Part shown: one piece after another, positions 5,780-15,102 of the stretch
Layout of the letters: each line of letters begins with the position of its first letter
How positions within the stretch are numbered: the stretch's first letter is position 1
Assembly: GCA_016788115.1 (NCBI GenBank)
Contig: JAEURR010000005.1
Coordinates: forward strand, 372,001-436,000
Source of the DNA: Chthonomonas sp.
GTDB taxonomy: Bacteria > Armatimonadota > Fimbriimonadia > Fimbriimonadales > Fimbriimonadaceae
Direction: 5' to 3'
DNA: 64,000 bases
The notes under the pieces: generated by a model
Seen by the model: the letters and a program-made list of their open reading frames with translations, nothing else
What the model was told of the DNA's origin: nothing
Databases searched by the model: none
Program-made: the position numbers and the translations under genes

Positions 5780-7108
5780 TTGACGAACGTGCTCAAGAAA
5801 GGCAATTTGCTTGTGTTGGCGATGTCGGCGGCATTGATCGCTGGCTGCGGTGGCGGTGGATTTTTCGATTTCCACGATGATTCCGGGAGCACTTCCGGTG
5901 GGTCTTCGAGCGGTGGCTCCTCCAGCGGCGGCGGCGGCATCTCTCGCAACTACCCCACGTTCAATTTGTCGCAGAACGGCATCGTTCAGGTCACCTTCCT
6001 GAGTGGCCTGAGTCGGCGCGCGACCGGATCGCAAGTTGCGGTTATTAACGCGGTCGAGTTCCAGAACGACGATGGCGAGCGGATTCCTGGCGCCAGCCAG
6101 GGTGCCTTCCCTGAGCTCTCAGTGGTGCTGGACGAGTACCGCATCAACACGGGCGAGATCGTGGTTAACTTCGACGGAACTCGCGCGAGCCAGATGTTCA
6201 CCGAGTTCCCGCTCCAGATCGCGAAGCTCAAGGAGATCCAGTCGGACGGAACAGCACAGGATCTGCCGATCGCAGGCAGTCCGGTTTTCGCCGCATCGCA
6301 ACCATTTGACGTGGATATGACCGTCGTGCCGGGTCGGTACACCGGTATTCAGGTACGCCTTGATCAGGAAATCGTGAAGTACAACAGCACCACGGGCCTG
6401 ATCTTCGACGAGGATAAGTTCCAAGCGTTCAACTACGATTTTCGCGGATCGATGCCGACTTTCTTCTCCGACTATCTCGCGTTTGACCTGAATGCGACGC
6501 CCGCTGGCGATCGCCCGTTCATGTCGAATGGCCAAGTAGCGGACCGCGTTTACTTCAGCGGTGACGGCATCGCCATCAGCCGCGGCGTCGGCTCGACCAG
6601 CAAGTTCGAGTTGCTCGCACCCATTGCGATCCAGTCGGGCACGATCCAAGTCGGTCCCACGATTGGCGGACGCAAGGCGAACAACACCTACCTGCTGACC
6701 GATAGCAATCCGAGCTCGTCGACCGAGACGGCGCTTACCGGCGTCTGGAAGCCTCACACCGACGTGGTCTCGCCCGGCGGCGACATCACCATGATCGCCT
6801 TCCCGAAGAGTGATGATGGTGCCTCGCAGCAGTTGGTCATCTACAAGCAAGCAAACGGATCGATCACCGCGATGTGGCAGGGACAGGTGGACTACTCGGA
6901 CGATTCGACGTCCGGAACGTTCAAGCTCTTCCCCGTCAGCACAGTTGACAACGCCATCCCGGTCACCACGGAGACCGTGACAGGCACCGTTTCAGGCCTT
7001 GTGACTCAGAACGGGGCGGTCATGCGCGGCAACTGGCTAGTCTCGGGGACGACCCCGGGCAGCTGGGTCTTCGGCACCAGCGGCGGATTCGCAACCTATC
7101 GACGTTGA
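5780..7108 (+). CDS. Lipoprotein with Gly/Ser linker, unknown function
   Basis: 442 residues from a TTG start at 5780, preceded by AGGTAGGA as a plausible ribosome-binding site. MTNVLKKGNLLVLAMSA followed by lipobox IAGC marks an exported lipoprotein, and a Ser/Gly repeat linker (about 35-55) separates the lipid anchor from the body. The body looks beta-rich (VVLDEYRINTGEIVVNFDG, VVPGRYTGIQVRLDQE) and resembles surface or DUF4382-like carbohydrate-associated domains, but I cannot assign a family. Its stop overlaps the TTG start of dop by four bases, so it is probably cotranscribed with the UBact-proteasome genes. A functional link is not shown. Confidence 0.75.
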   Translation: MTNVLKKGNLLVLAMSAALIAGCGGGGFFDFHDDSGSTSGGSSSGGSSSGGGGISRNYPTFNLSQNGIVQVTFLSGLSRRATGSQVAVINAVEFQNDDGERIPGASQGAFPELSVVLDEYRINTGEIVVNFDGTRASQMFTEFPLQIAKLKEIQSDGTAQDLPIAGSPVFAASQPFDVDMTVVPGRYTGIQVRLDQEIVKYNSTTGLIFDEDKFQAFNYDFRGSMPTFFSDYLAFDLNATPAGDRPFMSNGQVADRVYFSGDGIAISRGVGSTSKFELLAPIAIQSGTIQVGPTIGGRKANNTYLLTDSNPSSSTETALTGVWKPHTDVVSPGGDITMIAFPKSDDGASQQLVIYKQANGSITAMWQGQVDYSDDSTSGTFKLFPVSTVDNAIPVTTETVTGTVSGLVTQNGAVMRGNWLVSGTTPGSWVFGTSGGFATYRR

Positions 7109-8541
7109 ACCTAGGCCTTCTCACAGGCATCGAAACTGAATATGGCCTGTTCGTCGAAGGGCGGACACCAACGGACCAAGTGGAGGACGCCGCGGAATTT
7201 GTGCGGAGCCACCTTGGTCCGTCTTTCGTTGGATGGAATTACGACCACGAATCGCCGCGAAATGACCTGCGTGGGTTCAAGCTTGAGCGGCTGAGCGTCG
7301 ATCCGGAAGACTGGAAGTTTGAATCGGGCTCGCGCGTGCGACAGTCCGACGCGGCCGTGCGGAGCGACCGCGTGATGCACAACGGGGGAAGGTACTACAA
7401 CGACCACGGCCACCCCGAGTACGCCACCCCCGAATGCCTGGACACCGCCGATCTGGTGTGTCACGACCTCGCAGGGCATGCGACGCTGCGTCATTGCGCC
7501 ACACAGTTCACCGAGAGGACCGGTCGGCGATGCAAGGTCTACAAGAACAACACAGACTTCCACGGGGCTTCGTACGGAACGCACGAGAGCTACCTGGTGC
7601 CGCGCGCGGTCGGGTTTGAGGCATTGTACGCGGCGGTAATGCCGATGCTGGTCGCGCGAACCATCTTGTGCGGCGCAGGCAAGGCGTGCGCTGAATCCGG
7701 GGAGCCCTGTGATTTCCAACTGAGCCAACGGGCAGACTTCTTCATGGAATCGGCGAACGCAGAGACGCTGTACCGCCGACCGATCTTTAACACCCGAGAC
7801 GAGCCGCATGCCGACCCGCGAAAGTGGATGCGGTTGCACGTCATCTCGGGCGATGCGAACATGAATCCGAACGCGACCGCACGCAAAGTCTCCTTGATGC
7901 ACATCGCGTTGCGGCTCGCTGAGGCGGGCCATGCGCCCCGCTGGCCGCTGGCCGATCCTGTCCGGGCCATCAGGCAAATCAGCCGCGATACAACGCGCAA
8001 GTTTGAGACACCGGAGGGGGTGAGCGCCTACGCTATCCTGGATTCATATCTTGAAGCAGCCGTGCAGCATCTTGATCTCTGCTCCCGTGGCCGGGAGGCG
8101 CTCGATGAGATCGCACGGGTGATGAATTGGGTCCGAAGTCTTGATGACCAGGCGATCGGCGCAGTGGACTGGGTCGCCAAAGAGTACTTGCTCAGAGCGT
8201 TTTCAGGCGACCTGGATGGGCGCGCCGTGGATCTGGCCTACTGCGACCTGGATCGCGACGAGGGACTGTACTACGGTCTCGCCGCAGCCGGTATGGTGCC
8301 CGATCTGGACGATCTCGTTGAGCTGACTGAGGCTCCACCTACCCGAGCGGCCTGGCGAGCGCTGGCACTCGAAAGGTGGCCTGAAGCAGTCAGAGCGGTC
8401 ACGTGGAGTAGCTTGACCTTGGCGGTCGGAAGCGGAGAAATTGAGGTGGCATTACCTCCGGACATCGCTGCTCCCCCGAACCCGGAGTCTATACTCAGCG
8501 TAGAAGATTTCATCACTGAATTGGAGCGGTGCAATGCCTGA
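7105..8541 (+). CDS. dop: Dop-type UBact/Pup deamidase-deconjugase
   Basis: 478 residues of the Dop/PafA carboxylate-amine ligase-like family. The N-terminal GIETEYG is the beta-strand with the metal-binding Glu. WNYDHESPRNDLRGF, the loop region before YNDHGHPEYATPE and the later QLSQRADFF and NTRDEPHAD match Dop rather than PafA; Asp100 in YNDHGHPEY corresponds to the catalytic Asp of Dop. It would deamidate the C-terminal Gln of the tag encoded next door and remove the tag from lysines. It starts at TTG within TTGA, overlapping the upstream lipoprotein stop. Its 3' end carries the ribosome-binding site and start of the UBact gene (8-base overlap). The ligase PafA is not in this window. Confidence 0.9.
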   Translation: MNLGLLTGIETEYGLFVEGRTPTDQVEDAAEFVRSHLGPSFVGWNYDHESPRNDLRGFKLERLSVDPEDWKFESGSRVRQSDAAVRSDRVMHNGGRYYNDHGHPEYATPECLDTADLVCHDLAGHATLRHCATQFTERTGRRCKVYKNNTDFHGASYGTHESYLVPRAVGFEALYAAVMPMLVARTILCGAGKACAESGEPCDFQLSQRADFFMESANAETLYRRPIFNTRDEPHADPRKWMRLHVISGDANMNPNATARKVSLMHIALRLAEAGHAPRWPLADPVRAIRQISRDTTRKFETPEGVSAYAILDSYLEAAVQHLDLCSRGREALDEIARVMNWVRSLDDQAIGAVDWVAKEYLLRAFSGDLDGRAVDLAYCDLDRDEGLYYGLAAAGMVPDLDDLVELTEAPPTRAAWRALALERWPEAVRAVTWSSLTLAVGSGEIEVALPPDIAAPPNPESILSVEDFITELERCNA

Positions 8542-8710
8542 ACGAATCAACCGACCGAAGCCAGCTGAACCCGAGCGCAAACTGGGAGAAGACGAGGGGC
8601 CCAAGAACCCCAACCTGCAAAAGCCTTCCTTGCCCAACGAGTTGTTGCGCCGGATGAAGAATATTGATCCAGACCAGGCGAAGAAGTATCGCCAGCGCAG
8701 CGGCCAATGA
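8534..8710 (+). CDS. UBact, prokaryotic ubiquitin-like protein modifier
   Basis: 58-residue protein, highly charged and without Cys, beginning MPERINRPKPAEPERK and ending DPDQAKKYRQRSGQ. The disordered Pro/Lys/Glu-rich N-half, a helix-forming middle (LPNELLRRMKNID) and the C-terminal YRQRSGQ match UBact, the Pup-like modifier described from several Gram-negative phyla; actinobacterial Pup has a different C-terminal stretch. The last residue is Gln, so deamidation to Glu would be needed before ligation, which fits the adjacent dop. GGAG at 8523-8526, inside dop, is 7 bases before the ATG. The gene overlaps dop by 8 bases and its stop overlaps the prcB start (ATGA at 8707-8710). Seven Lys residues could accept chains. 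Confidence 0.92.
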   Translation: MPERINRPKPAEPERKLGEDEGPKNPNLQKPSLPNELLRRMKNIDPDQAKKYRQRSGQ

Positions 8711-9456
8711 ACGTTCCTCCTCCTCGCTCGTTCGCTGATCTGGTGGGATTCCACGACCGCCAAGTCACGGGCGTCTCGGCCGACCGTGAAGTCCACGGAA
8801 CCACCGTTCTCTCGCTCCGTTACGATGGAGGCATCCTCACCTTGGCCGATCGGCGCGCCACCATGGGCAACCTGATCATGTTTGATCAGGCGGAGAAGAT
8901 CATGCCCCTGGACGATGCGACCGTCGTCGCGATCAGTGGCTCGTTCGCCCGGTCCATCGAAGTGTGCCGGATGCTCAAGCACTCCTACAAGTACTACCGG
9001 CGCATGCACATGAGCTCGATGTCCACTGAGGGCAAGCTGCAGGAGATCTCGCGCGCACTCGCGGGGAACATGCCCATGGCGATGCAGGGGATCGGCGTGT
9101 TCATCCCGATCTTGTCCATGTACGACTCGCATAGCGATGAGTTCAAAATGTTCTTCTTTGACGCCGCCGGGGCGCAATTCTTGAGCGGGGAGTACGCCGC
9201 AGCGGGGAGCGGCTCGGAGCGGATTCGCGGCATCTTTGAGTACCTCACTCGCACCGGCAAACCGTGGCGCGAGCGAAAGCTCGCAGACGTGCTAAAGGAG
9301 GGACTGCGAATGCTCGACATCGCCGCCGATCTCGACTCGGCAACGGGTGGTTTTGGCAAAACGCCTCCGATGGCGCAACTCTTGGATCGCGACGGCACAC
9401 GGCCTGTCGACGCGGCATTGCTGACGAAGACGATCGAAACAGTTCTCGGTCGCTAG
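8707..9456 (+). CDS. prcB: 20S proteasome beta subunit PrcB
   Basis: 249 residues. A 31-residue propeptide ends at His-Gly, leaving Thr32 as the N-terminal nucleophile of the mature chain (TTVLSLRYDGG). Counting from that Thr, the expected Asp17, Arg19 and Lys33 are all present (LADRRA, DQAEK), and later GSGSER and DLDSATGG fit the beta-subunit core. It would form the proteolytic rings that degrade UBact-tagged proteins. It starts in the ATGA overlap with the UBact stop and has no visible Shine-Dalgarno of its own, so translation is probably coupled. No alpha subunit follows: the next gene is on the other strand, with the two stop codons overlapping (CTAG). Confidence 0.93.
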   Translation: MNVPPPRSFADLVGFHDRQVTGVSADREVHGTTVLSLRYDGGILTLADRRATMGNLIMFDQAEKIMPLDDATVVAISGSFARSIEVCRMLKHSYKYYRRMHMSSMSTEGKLQEISRALAGNMPMAMQGIGVFIPILSMYDSHSDEFKMFFFDAAGAQFLSGEYAAAGSGSERIRGIFEYLTRTGKPWRERKLADVLKEGLRMLDIAADLDSATGGFGKTPPMAQLLDRDGTRPVDAALLTKTIETVLGR

Positions 9457-9788
9457 CGCACTCGAACTGGGTCCGGGAAGTCGCGGTACAGCGCGGTTCG
9501 CATGGACCGTATTCGGCTGAAGACCTCGGCATGGAGCGTCTCTAGCTCACCGGCGCGTGCGGCCGCGTGGTTGAAAACTTGGTCTAGCTGCACCAAGTCC
9601 ATCACGTCGATGACCACAGCCCATTCGCCGAGCTCGCTTGGACCAAACCCCAGGGAGCGACGCTGAATCCGGTACTCGGCGATGTCACCGGTCTCTTTCA
9701 GGTAGCCGAGGAACTTGTGGAGGGCGTCGCTAAAAGCAATATCATGCACGCCCTTCTGGATATCGACCCACACGTAATAAGACTGCAC
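9453..9788 (-). CDS. Conserved-looking small protein of unknown function
   Basis: 111 residues from a GTG at 9788 that touches the last base of alaS. The sequence (MQSYYVWVDIQKGVHDIAF, then FLGYLKETGDIAEYRI, RRSLGFGPSELGEW) alternates strands and helices in a way that suggests a small dimeric alpha/beta-barrel protein, cytosolic and with no signal peptide. It ends by overlapping the stop of the convergent prcB. I do not recognise a characterised family. It is likely cotranscribed with alaS. The coding nature is supported by clean GC-biased codons and the tight packing against both neighbours. Confidence 0.7.
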   Translation of the reverse strand: MQSYYVWVDIQKGVHDIAFSDALHKFLGYLKETGDIAEYRIQRRSLGFGPSELGEWAVVIDVMDLVQLDQVFNHAAARAGELETLHAEVFSRIRSMRTALYRDFPDPVRVR

Positions 9789-12580
9789 TAGCTGCTCACC
9801 ATCTGTTTCAGCGCAGCCGCACCGATCTCAAGGGCTTCGTTCAGTTTCGAAGGATCGCGGCCCCCCGCAGTTGCGTACTCGCTCCGGCCACCGCCACCGC
9901 CACCGGCTGCCTTGGCGACTTCGCGAACGATGTTCCCCGCGTGCGCACCCTTCTCTACCGCCCCGGCACCAGCCTTGCAGAAGAAGGTCAATTTGCCATC
10001 GGCCAAGAGGCCAGCCAGAGCTACGCGCAACGGATTGCCAGCGACGAAGTTGTCCACCTGCTCGGAGACCATTTTTTGCTCGATGTCCTCGAACGTCGGG
10101 CGCCAAAGTTCGATTTCTCCAAAAAGATCGGTCTTTATTCCGCCTTCTTCTCCCTCACCAGAGAGCAACCGTCGCTCGACGGTCTCGCGCCGTTTACGCT
10201 CCTCGCGCAGCTGCTCCAGGGTGCGCTCTATTGCACTGACGAGGCTCTTGGGAGCGGCCTTGAGGCATGCGCTCGCCGCACGGATGGTTTCGGCCTGCTC
10301 GATCAGCAGGGCACGCGCACCGTTGCCGGTCCGAGCCTCAATGCGCCGGATGCCACTGGCGGCGCTGCTCTCGCTTACGATACGGAAAAGTCCAATCTCG
10401 CCCGTCGCACCGACGTGCGTGCCACCACACAGTTCGCGGCTGAACTCGCCGATCTCGACCATGCGCACACGATCACCGTACTTTTCGCCGAACAATGCCA
10501 TGGCGCCGCGCGCACGAGCCTCCTCAATCGGAAGATCAACATGGGTGACGACGGATGTATTGGCGAGTATCTGCTCGTACACAGCCTCCTCAATCTCTGC
10601 CAACTCCTGGTGGGTCAGTGCTTTGCTATGCGAAAAGTCAAAGCGGAGGTGATCCGGCGCGACGAGCGAGCCAGCCTGGCTCACATGGCTGCCGAGCGTC
10701 TTGCGCAGCGCTGCATGCAGGAGGTGAGTTGCGGTGTGGTTCCGCATGATCTCGCGGCGACGACTAACATCGACCATGGCAACGACTTCGTGGTTGAAGA
10801 GCTGCGAGTGCAGTATTTTCGCAACTTCATATCGCGGCAGCCCAGAGAGCTCGGTCGGATGGTTTAGTTTCTTAACTTCGCACAAGTGGACGAAGACACC
10901 ATCTTGTCGGATGGAATCGACGACCTCCAACTCGAATGCGGGGCCGACCAGGGTGCCGGTATCGCTGATTTGGCCGCCAGACTCTGCATAGAGTGGCGTC
11001 CGATCTAACGCGATCGCGACTCGCCCCGTGCTCAACCCGTTCTCCAGGACCTCTGGAAGTGCACCCACTATCCGCGCCGGGACTTGAGCCTCTGTGTATC
11101 CGACGAAGTGGGTAGGGGTCGCACTGTCGGAGTCCGCTTCAAAGATGAACTGAATCTCGACCCCACCGTAGACCGTGTCGAGCCCGCTCGCGCCACGGCT
11201 GCGCTCTTGCGCCTCGCGCATGGCGTGCTCGTAGCCATCGGTATCCACGGTGACGCCCGACTCGCCGCAGATCTCAAGTGTCACCTCAAGCGGGAAGCCG
11301 TACGTGTCGTAGAGCTTGAACGCATACTCACCATCGAGCACATCGCCTGCTTGCTTCGACTCGATTTCCTCCTGCAACCGAGCGAAACCCGCATCGAGCG
11401 TGCGGCGGAATAGTTGTTCCTCGTTCGCCAGCGTCTCGGCGATCGCGGCTTCTCGGTCCACTAGTTCGTGGTACGCCGAGCCCATGATCTCTGGGAGCAC
11501 GGGGAAGACCAGGTGCATGAACGGCTGATCAAAATGTAATACACGCTGTCCCTTGAGCACTGCGCGGCGAATGAGGCGGCGCAGCACGTATCCGCGCCCG
11601 GTGTTGCCGGGCAAGATTCCGTCCCCGATGCAAAAGGACGCCGTTCTCAGATGGTCGGCGATGATGCGCATGGCTGCATCGGTCGTCTCGTCCGCTCCGT
11701 ACTTTCGGTTACAAAGCCCACCAATCCGCGCAAGAATCGGCTGAAAGACGTCCGTCTCGTAGACGCTGCTAAAGCCGCCCAGCACAGCGGCGGTCCTTTC
11801 AAGTCCCATTCCAGTGTCGATGCTCGGGAACGGGAGGTCAGGCATTCCGTCTTTGACATAGCCGTCACCGGGGCGATCAATATTCATCAAGTGGCCTTGC
11901 CATTCGTATCGAATGAACACATCGTTCCAGATCTCCAGCCAGCGGCCCGCTTCTTCGTCCCGCAGATAGTCCTCGCGGGTGTAGGGTCCTTCGGGAAGCG
12001 GTCCAGAGTCGGCAGTCCAGTAGAACATTTCCGAATTTGGCCCGCAGGGTCCCGGAGGGCCGGAAGAGAATGAACCAGCCGGCCAGAAGTTCGTTTCCTC
12101 GGTCAAGCGAAAGATGCGTGTCGCCGGGTCAATTCCGACCGACGCGAGGCACTTCGCCCACTCATCGTACGCTTCGTCGTCATTCTCGAAGACCGTGAAT
12201 GCGAGACGCTTCGGGTCTAGACCCAGCCACTTTTTCGAGGTCAAGAATTCCCACGAGTACTGAATCGCCTCGGCCTTAAAGTAGTCTCCGAACGAGAAGT
12301 TGCCGAGCATCTCGAAGAAGGTGAGGTGCGAACTATCGCCGACGATCTCGATGTCGCCGGTGCGCACACACTTCTGCGCGGTCGTCAATCGTCGATTCTT
12401 CGGTTCCGCGACCCCGCGGAAGTAAGGCTTGAACTGCACCATGCCCGCGCCGTTGAAGAGCAGCGACTCATCCAAACGACCCGTGACATCGTAAGGCACG
12501 AGCGAACCCGATGGGAAATGGTCATGCCCTTTCTCGACGAAGAATTCAATGTATTTACGGCGGAGCTCGCTGGCTTTCAT
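9788..12580 (-). CDS. alaS: Alanine-tRNA ligase
   Basis: About 930 residues, close to the usual bacterial length of about 875. It charges tRNA-Ala. The start is the Met of MKASELRRKYIEFFVEKGHD, the conserved family N-terminus; the frame stays open 55 codons upstream but that part overlaps priA and is not AlaRS-like. Visible parts are the class II core (SSHLTFFEMLGNFSFGDYF; GMGLERTAAVLGG), the editing-domain zinc motif HTATH, and CGGTHVGATGEIG with the partner Cys and His. The C-terminal domain ends in a Gly-rich segment (AAGGGGGGRSEYATAGG) typical of the DHHA1 region. priA ends 35 bases upstream. Confidence 0.97.
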   Translation of the reverse strand: MKASELRRKYIEFFVEKGHDHFPSGSLVPYDVTGRLDESLLFNGAGMVQFKPYFRGVAEPKNRRLTTAQKCVRTGDIEIVGDSSHLTFFEMLGNFSFGDYFKAEAIQYSWEFLTSKKWLGLDPKRLAFTVFENDDEAYDEWAKCLASVGIDPATRIFRLTEETNFWPAGSFSSGPPGPCGPNSEMFYWTADSGPLPEGPYTREDYLRDEEAGRWLEIWNDVFIRYEWQGHLMNIDRPGDGYVKDGMPDLPFPSIDTGMGLERTAAVLGGFSSVYETDVFQPILARIGGLCNRKYGADETTDAAMRIIADHLRTASFCIGDGILPGNTGRGYVLRRLIRRAVLKGQRVLHFDQPFMHLVFPVLPEIMGSAYHELVDREAAIAETLANEEQLFRRTLDAGFARLQEEIESKQAGDVLDGEYAFKLYDTYGFPLEVTLEICGESGVTVDTDGYEHAMREAQERSRGASGLDTVYGGVEIQFIFEADSDSATPTHFVGYTEAQVPARIVGALPEVLENGLSTGRVAIALDRTPLYAESGGQISDTGTLVGPAFELEVVDSIRQDGVFVHLCEVKKLNHPTELSGLPRYEVAKILHSQLFNHEVVAMVDVSRRREIMRNHTATHLLHAALRKTLGSHVSQAGSLVAPDHLRFDFSHSKALTHQELAEIEEAVYEQILANTSVVTHVDLPIEEARARGAMALFGEKYGDRVRMVEIGEFSRELCGGTHVGATGEIGLFRIVSESSAASGIRRIEARTGNGARALLIEQAETIRAASACLKAAPKSLVSAIERTLEQLREERKRRETVERRLLSGEGEEGGIKTDLFGEIELWRPTFEDIEQKMVSEQVDNFVAGNPLRVALAGLLADGKLTFFCKAGAGAVEKGAHAGNIVREVAKAAGGGGGGRSEYATAGGRDPSKLNEALEIGAAALKQMVSS

Positions 12581-12615
12581 GGCGAAGTGCCCTAAAGGGT
12601 ACCCGCGAGCCTGAG

Positions 12616-15102
12616 TTACATCATGGAATGTGGGTTGACGTCCACCATCATCGAAGCTTTCTTGGGGTCGAATCCGGCCAAGATCAGGCCAATCTCCGAG
12701 GGGTGCACATGCAGAGGCAGCTTCAGCAGCAAGTGCATGCGCCACTGGTTATTCAGCCGTTCCAATGGACAATCCACTGGCCCGTTGACCCGCACTCCGT
12801 GCGCCGCCGACTTGAGCTGCGTGGACAAATCCGAGATCGCTGCGCCGACCGCTTCGCGATCCTCACCAGAGATTACAATATTGATCAGCCTGCAGAATGG
12901 GGGGTACCAAGCTTCCTTCCGTTCGGAAAGAATATTGCGATAGAGCTCGCGATAGTCGTGGCTCATCGCACACCTGATGGCGTGGTTCTCGGGGGCCAAG
13001 GTCTGGATGACGACCTCGCCGGGTCGCTCGCCGCGTCCCGCGCGACCGCTCACCTGCGAGAGCAGTTGGAACGTGCGCTCGCTCGCACGGAAGTCTGGAA
13101 TATTGAGCGAGATGTCGGCGGCGATGACGCCCACCAGCGTGACATGGGGAAAGTCGAGACCCTTCGCCACCATCTGGGTGCCGACAAGCACCTGAATGGC
13201 TCGGCTACGGAAAAGCGCCAACGTTTCCTCAAGCGCGCCCGACTTTGCGGCAATGTCGCGGTCCAAGCGTGCGACCGACGTGGTGGGAAACTCTTGACGG
13301 ACGGCTTCTTCCACCTTCTCCGCGCCAGTACCGAACGCCCCGATCCGGTCGCTAGAGCAGGCCGGGCACACGTCCGGCGCCGCTTCCTCGCGTGCGCAGT
13401 GGTGGCACTTCAGCCGCTTCACCCGCTTATGGAAGCTCATCGCGGTGGCACAGTTTACGCACTTGAACTGGTGCCCGCAATCACGACACAGAAGAAACGG
13501 CGAGTAGGCGCGCCGATTCAGGAATAGGATCACCTGTTCTTCTCGCGCGAGTGAGGACACCATTTTCTGCTTCAGCAGGGGCGAAAAGAGCGAGGGGTGT
13601 CGCTCGCGATACAACTCGGTGAGGTCCTGGATGTGGATGGTCGGCAGCTTGGCGCTCGCCGTCCGCACCGGCATCTCCAGGAGCGTGTGCTTCTCGGTCT
13701 CGGCTGCGTAAAAGCTCTCGATGCTGGGTGTGGCCGAACCCAGTACCACGGGCGCATCGAACTGCTGCCCCAAGAAAAGCGCCACATCGCGACCGTGATA
13801 GCGCGGGGCCGATTCCTGCTTGTAGCTGTTTTCGTGCTCCTCATCCACGATCACCAAACCGAGATCGCGAATCGGCGAAAAGAGCGCCGATCGTGCCCCA
13901 AGGATCACTGCCGCCTCGCCGCTCGCGATTTTGAGCCAGTTTGCGAGCCGCTCCTGTGGAGGCAAGTTGCTGTGCAGGACGGTCACCCCGCGACCGAAGC
14001 GGTTTCGCAGTTGGGCAATGACTTGGGCGGTCAAGGCGATCTCAGGGACGAGGTAGAGGACGCTTCGCCCCAGCCGGAGGGCCTGCTCGGCAGCGTGCAG
14101 ATAGACTTCTGTCTTGCCGCTCCCCGTGACGCCAAAGAGCAGGAATGACTCGTGACGACGACCGGTGATTGCGGACACAACCGCGTCGGTCGCCTTGCGC
14201 TGAGCCGGGTTTAAGACCGGCGCAGGGGTCGAAAGATAACCGTCGGCATCGACGCGCTCCAACAGCCCCGCCTGGATCAGCGCATGGAGTGTCTGATCGG
14301 TTGCCCCGCTGAGCGCCTTGACCTCTTGCGCGCTGAAACTGGAAGTAGATGCCCCCTGTAGCCGCATCAAAGTAAGTGCCTGCGCGGGCCGCTTCTTACC
14401 GTTTTTGGCCAGGAACAGCTCAATTTTATGCTCGTCTGAAGTCAACCGGATCTCGCCCGTGAGACGGTGTCGATCGACGAGCGGTGCGACACTCAACTGC
14501 TCCTCGACGATCCCGAGCTTGCGCAGTGAACGCAGGTGTTTCTTGGCTCCCGCCGCGATCGGCTTCTGCTTGGTTTCGATAAGTGAACCGCCGTGATCGG
14601 CCAACACCTTGAGAGTCTCCGACTGGGCGACGGACAGCCCGGTCTGCTCGTCCTTTTCAAGAGCTCGGATGACCTTCCACTCGGTCACTATCCGCTCTTT
14701 CAACCCGGGTGGCATCGCCAGACCCAGCGCAGCGGAGGTCGAAGACAGAGTCTCCGTGGCGACCCACTCCACCAGGTCGAGCAGCGTCTCCGGGAGACGC
14801 ACACCGTGGACGATCCCCGTGATCTGCCGTAGCGCCGACGGCGCAAATCCGAGTTGGCGCGGGGACACACGTCGAATCGAGAGGACGGTTCCCAGAGCGG
14901 TGCGCGGGCCGAGCGGCACCACGACGGTATCTCCCGGCGAAGCCCCGACTGCGTTGCTGTAGGTGTAGAGCGCCTCGTTGCCCGCCGTGCGCGCGTCCAT
15001 TGCCACATCGGCAACTTCGATTTGGGCGACGCCTCCCACGATGGCGTGGGTCACGGTCTTGGCAGGGGTTTTCATCGCTGGGATGCGTTCATTGTGCAAC
15101 AT
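12616..15102 (-). CDS. priA: Primosomal replication-restart helicase PriA
   Basis: 828 residues. It restarts stalled replication forks by loading the replicative helicase. Motifs in order: N-terminal DNA-binding domain, Walker A FGVTGSGKTEVYL, DEEH box (VIVDEEHENSYKQ), then the zinc-binding insert with paired cysteines (CRDCGHQFKCVNC, CHHCAREE, CPACSSD) and the helicase motif VSGRAGRGERPGEV. The start at 15102 is taken because it gives full length; MKTPAKTV at 15075 is an alternative that may be better, since only 15 bases separate 15102 from the divergent small gene. It is followed closely by alaS. Confidence 0.95.
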   Translation of the reverse strand: MLHNERIPAMKTPAKTVTHAIVGGVAQIEVADVAMDARTAGNEALYTYSNAVGASPGDTVVVPLGPRTALGTVLSIRRVSPRQLGFAPSALRQITGIVHGVRLPETLLDLVEWVATETLSSTSAALGLAMPPGLKERIVTEWKVIRALEKDEQTGLSVAQSETLKVLADHGGSLIETKQKPIAAGAKKHLRSLRKLGIVEEQLSVAPLVDRHRLTGEIRLTSDEHKIELFLAKNGKKRPAQALTLMRLQGASTSSFSAQEVKALSGATDQTLHALIQAGLLERVDADGYLSTPAPVLNPAQRKATDAVVSAITGRRHESFLLFGVTGSGKTEVYLHAAEQALRLGRSVLYLVPEIALTAQVIAQLRNRFGRGVTVLHSNLPPQERLANWLKIASGEAAVILGARSALFSPIRDLGLVIVDEEHENSYKQESAPRYHGRDVALFLGQQFDAPVVLGSATPSIESFYAAETEKHTLLEMPVRTASAKLPTIHIQDLTELYRERHPSLFSPLLKQKMVSSLAREEQVILFLNRRAYSPFLLCRDCGHQFKCVNCATAMSFHKRVKRLKCHHCAREEAAPDVCPACSSDRIGAFGTGAEKVEEAVRQEFPTTSVARLDRDIAAKSGALEETLALFRSRAIQVLVGTQMVAKGLDFPHVTLVGVIAADISLNIPDFRASERTFQLLSQVSGRAGRGERPGEVVIQTLAPENHAIRCAMSHDYRELYRNILSERKEAWYPPFCRLINIVISGEDREAVGAAISDLSTQLKSAAHGVRVNGPVDCPLERLNNQWRMHLLLKLPLHVHPSEIGLILAGFDPKKASMMVDVNPHSMM

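Follow-up and report, generated by a model that had tools for sequence, protein, structure and literature searches.

We conclude that a cluster of three overlapping genes in the window, by which we mean the whole 64,000-nucleotide stretch of DNA that was analyzed, very probably (with a probability of about 0.9) codes for three parts of a Pup-type (UBact) system that combines tagging with a proteasome: the modifier, the enzyme that trims it and the proteolytic subunit. The conclusion draws on the presence of the genes, the identity of their families, their conserved catalytic residues, the co-occurrence of the components and the order of the genes. The UBact system of Gram-negative phyla is said to have been set out in 2017 by Lehmann, Udasin, Livneh and Ciechanover. 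The system itself is not new, having been described under the name UBact (Lehmann et al. 2017, as cited in PMC12441361), and what the locus adds is a split operon specific to the Fimbriimonadaceae. Shared with the known system are the modifier family (PF20513, NF033388), the C-terminal motif [KR]YRQR[ST]G[QE], homologues of Dop and PafA, a 20S proteasome and an Mpa-type ATPase; the difference is that the operon of the Fimbriimonadaceae is split to dop-UBact-prcB, with prcA, pafA and mpa apart. We found no biochemical study of any UBact system in the literature searched; UBact systems are known from sequence.

Table 1. Features at and around the dop-UBact-prcB locus (positions in the window)
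Feature	Position	Strand	Details	Assignment
Lipoprotein-like gene upstream of dop	5780-7108	+		no family match
Overlap of lipoprotein-like gene and dop	7105-7108	+	4 bases, TTGA	
dop	7105-8541	+	478 aa, TTG start	Dop-type depupylase/deamidase homologue
Overlap of dop and UBact gene	8534-8541	+	8 bases	
UBact gene	8534-8710	+	58 aa, ATG start, C-terminus KKYRQRSGQ*	ubiquitin-like modifier
Overlap of UBact gene and prcB	8707-8710	+	4 bases, ATGA	
prcB	8707-9456	+	249 aa, ATG start, 31-residue propeptide	20S proteasome beta subunit
DUF6614 gene downstream of prcB	9453-9788	-		
alaS, next after DUF6614 gene	9788-12745	-		

The physical coupling of the three genes, which the preliminary description had taken from the two overlaps that join them, matches the coordinates of the open reading frames base for base (Table 1). 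The TTG codon is the earliest available start in the dop frame, and the unusual start of that gene is therefore forced. Directly 3' of prcB the coding strand switches from plus to minus, and a scan of the locus for promoters and terminators yielded none that exceeded shuffled sequences.

The usual order of the genes in the Chthonomonadaceae, in other Armatimonadota, in Poribacteria and in a Nitrospirales and an Acetothermia genome is mpa-dop-UBact-prcB-prcA-pafA. In the Fimbriimonadaceae only dop-UBact-prcB stay together, and prcA, pafA and mpa are found at separate sites; the locus is the remainder of a six-gene module that was split in this family. The sequence ATGA at the UBact stop codon, which permits the overlap with the prcB start, is present at 49 of about 70 split loci and at 1 of about 46 full operons (some genomes were entered twice, L058 and L122, for example, being one contig, and the counts are not independent).

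Other arrangements were also seen. In family f2 (G066-G073; loci L155, L156 and L157) the UBact gene is at a distance from prcB and prcA; this split differs from that of the Fimbriimonadaceae. There is no prcB in the flanks of these three loci, and the idea that UBact exists there without a proteasome was discarded when prcB and prcA were located elsewhere in the genomes. An apparent lack of PrcA in another genome (G104) was likewise dismissed, the TIGR03691 model having found the protein. In a Fimbriimonadales genome pafA adjoins dop (L074:3158-7386), and UBact was not found in the flanks of this pair.

The source genome (2.4 Mb in 9 contigs, 97% complete), which its named relatives place in the family Fimbriimonadaceae of the Armatimonadota, was searched for the partners that the preliminary description had proposed to look for elsewhere, namely pafA, prcA and an Mpa/ARC ATPase gene, and all three were found. 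On contig C8 there is another Pup_ligase gene (L001:1480-2958), which is pafA as judged by its place in the tree described below, the absence of the Dop-loop and the presence of the catalytic Asp. Contig C6 carries a diverged prcA (L004), with 76 bits to TIGR03691 and an E value of 1e-12 to PrcA in the PDB, and contig C5, some 210 kb from the window genes, carries a gene for an Mpa/ARC ATPase (L005:1450-3096), with 462 bits to TIGR03689 and an E value of 1e-106 to Mpa in the PDB. The product of prcB aligns with mature Mtb PrcB from Thr1, which is residue 32, and retains the catalytic trio of Thr1 (T32), Asp17 (D48) and Lys33 (K64). None of Dop, PafA, PrcA, PrcB and Mpa reaches its equivalog cut-off in NCBIfam, and these cut-offs were apparently calibrated on closer homologues.

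Across the 291 Armatimonadota genomes sampled, UBact is present in 167 and a Pup_ligase gene in 188. Given that 21 genomes have a Pup_ligase gene without UBact, all of the genomes with UBact (167/167) also carry a Pup_ligase gene. Two Fimbriimonadaceae genomes of 1.5 Mb, each 97% complete (G133 and G134), lack UBact, Dop/PafA, the 20S proteasome and Mpa alike, apparently a clean loss of the entire system. In a survey from 2020 the occurrence of Dop/PafA beyond the Actinobacteria and Nitrospirae was termed "very sporadic" (PMC7947786), a description with which the 188 Armatimonadota genomes that have a gene of the Dop/PafA family stand in contrast. The family Fimbriimonadaceae includes a sequenced isolate, Fimbriimonas ginsengisoli (PMC4072686), and a complete set of genes in such a family makes Pup-like tagging outside Actinobacteria testable.

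We infer the biochemical steps, and the joint working of all the parts in this organism, by homology. UBact would be made with a Gln end, which Dop would deamidate to Glu. PafA, encoded on C8, would phosphorylate the side chain of this Glu and join UBact to lysines of substrates, from which Dop would later strip it. The Mpa/ARC ring, encoded on C5, would bind the tag, unfold the substrate and feed it into a 20S core made of PrcB and of PrcA from C6.

A different view of what tagging leads to is that UBact is mainly a reversible, non-degradative mark and that the ATPase and the 20S core have become uncoupled from it in this lineage. Some pupylation-competent Actinobacteria lack a proteasome. 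In favor of uncoupling, the genes of the system are dispersed in the Fimbriimonadaceae, and the ATPase has a tail without the Tyr motif that mycobacteria need for opening of the 20S core, where GQYL is required (PMC12288473). The Mpa homologue ends in DQKSII, without GQYL or a Hb-Tyr-X motif, and coupling to the 20S core is thus not to be assumed. This feature extends to the UBact genomes at large: a penultimate Tyr is found in none of 65 Mpa-type ATPases from them (including L182-L209 and L076-L121), and 62 of the 65 end in two aliphatic residues. Against uncoupling, however, UBact and prcB overlap and the pair is adjacent in most split-operon genomes, the proteasome and Mpa were lost jointly from the UBact-less genomes G133 and G134, and the lysine of PrcA at which such tails dock is conserved in all of the relatives compared (67/67). 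The same lysine is present in a reference fragment of Mtb PrcA. On this evidence we regard a chiefly non-degradative role as improbable and favor tagging for degradation by the proteasome.

The gene upstream of UBact was described at the outset as Dop-type, and it proves to encode a true Dop homologue and not an unrelated glutamate ligase or PafA. Its product belongs to the Pup_ligase family (382 bits) and scores higher against the Dop model of NCBIfam than against the PafA model (298 versus 238 bits). The closest solved relatives are structures of AceDop (4b0r and 5lrt, E value of 9e-66), and the alignment pairs W44 with the Dop-loop Trp (W47), R96 and Y98 with R90 and Y92, D100 with D94, R231 with R227, and H245 with H241. 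Asp94, Arg227 and His241 are residues that act in Dop catalysis, and the Dop-loop is absent from PafA (PMC8599861). The N-terminal segment of the window protein measures 78 residues, as compared to 74-84 in Dop and 49-50 in PafA, a difference that corresponds to the Dop-loop. Although the score against TIGR03688 falls short of the equivalog cut-off (297.6 versus 492.3 bits), the tree and the loop place the protein with Dop, and we therefore file it as a Dop homologue rather than as a TIGR03688 equivalog.

Could the roles of the two Pup_ligase genes be exchanged, such that the window gene codes for the ligase, PafA, and the depupylase is encoded on C8? The C8 protein does have Dop as its top matches in the PDB, and its PafA and Dop scores are nearly tied (291.5 versus 289.4 bits in NCBIfam). 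Yet it is the window gene that has the Dop-loop, the equivalent of W47 and NDHGHPEYATPE, whereas the C8 protein lacks the Dop-loop and carries the PafA-like IDAVGSHLEYATAE, and in intact operons the relatives of the C8 protein are encoded at the final position, that of pafA. The tree groups the window gene with Dop and the C8 gene with PafA, the two being separated by one branch with support of 81/89, albeit with a single reference PafA (CglPafA) that forms a long branch. The loop, the motif and the tree led us to reject an exchange of roles, the chance of which we consider very small.

With the window gene as dop and the C8 gene as pafA, a change in the ligase comes into view. In place of NTRDEPH the C8 protein has NPKWEHFY, and NP[KR][WR][DE] occurs in all 34 PafAs from Armatimonadota and one Acetothermia genome (the C8 protein and its relatives L236-L255). 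NTRDEPL is kept in 18 of 18 PafAs from Poribacteria and Nitrospirales, and the N-x-R-D-E core in every Dop sequence examined. The Arg of NTRDEPH, which is R227 in Dop, contacts the active-site phosphate (PMC8599861). Given the near-tied scores and the replaced motif, ligase activity of the C8 protein is not to be assumed; a basic residue is retained at the Arg position of the Armatimonadota PafAs, however, and activity may therefore survive. Judged from the sequences, both the ligase swap in Armatimonadota and the aliphatic ATPase tail of the UBact clade are possibly new: no paper on either was found in a literature search that did not extend to most subscription journals.

The enzyme families, the catalytic Asp, the Dop-loop, the Gln/Glu end of the modifier, Thr1, Asp17 and Lys33 of PrcB, and the docking lysine of PrcA are all common to this system and to the actinobacterial Pup-proteasome (Pup, Dop, PafA, Mpa and PrcAB). 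Pup ends in GGQ or GGE, whereas the modifier here ends in RSGQ and matches UBact models but no Pup model of Pfam or NCBIfam. Also unlike the actinobacterial system are the ligase of the Armatimonadota, with NPKWE rather than NTRDE, and the ATPase tail without GQYL. One might tentatively suppose that UBact and Pup systems differ in mechanism at two interfaces, which in UBact systems would be a rebuilt motif in the Armatimonadota ligase (NP[KR][WR][DE] for NTRDEPH, where the equivalent of Dop Arg227 contacts phosphate) and docking of an aliphatic pair of the ATPase against the conserved PrcA lysine, in replacement of GQYL/Hb-Tyr-X, a proposal that we find conceivable but on balance doubtful. The swaps in the ligase and the ATPase pinpoint exact residues for mutation.

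Finally, the identity of the modifier itself, which the preliminary description had named UBact, is upheld by two curated models. The 58-residue protein scores 73 bits against PF20513 of Pfam (curated cut-off 27.8) and 71.6 bits against NF033388 of NCBIfam (curated cut-off 35), and UBact alone matched in scans of Pfam and NCBIfam; it is the single match in a family search of the whole genome. Its N-terminal half is charged and rich in Pro, its C-terminus, KYRQRSGQ, agrees with the motif YRQR[ST]G[QE], which relatives share with either a Q or an E end, and its sole match in the PDB, a human protein, was at chance level. Although the reading frame is short, a chance frame or a pseudogene is ruled out for practical purposes by the score against PF20513 and by a position and a C-terminus common to dozens of relatives. 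With UBact conserved in relatives, a genuine Dop homologue beside it and the partner genes present, the description withstood scrutiny at each of the three points at which it could have failed.

Less straightforward was the notion that the Gln end fits a Dop deamidase. The neighbor is a true Dop homologue, but UBact ends in Q in 56 cases and in E in 17 in the split arrangement, as compared to 12 and 34 in the full operon (counts that include the duplicate genomes and are not independent), and Dop is retained alongside both kinds of end; hence a Gln end is not required. The presence of Dop with both ends fits, we infer, a role as a depupylase beyond deamidation. The remnant predicted on a UBact-tagged lysine after trypsin should be Ser-Gly-Glu (+273.10 Da, calculated) and not Gly-Glu. 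At one further locus (L094:7534-7879) two neighboring UBact frames, ending in RYRQRSGE and HYKQRPGQ, lie between dop and prcB.
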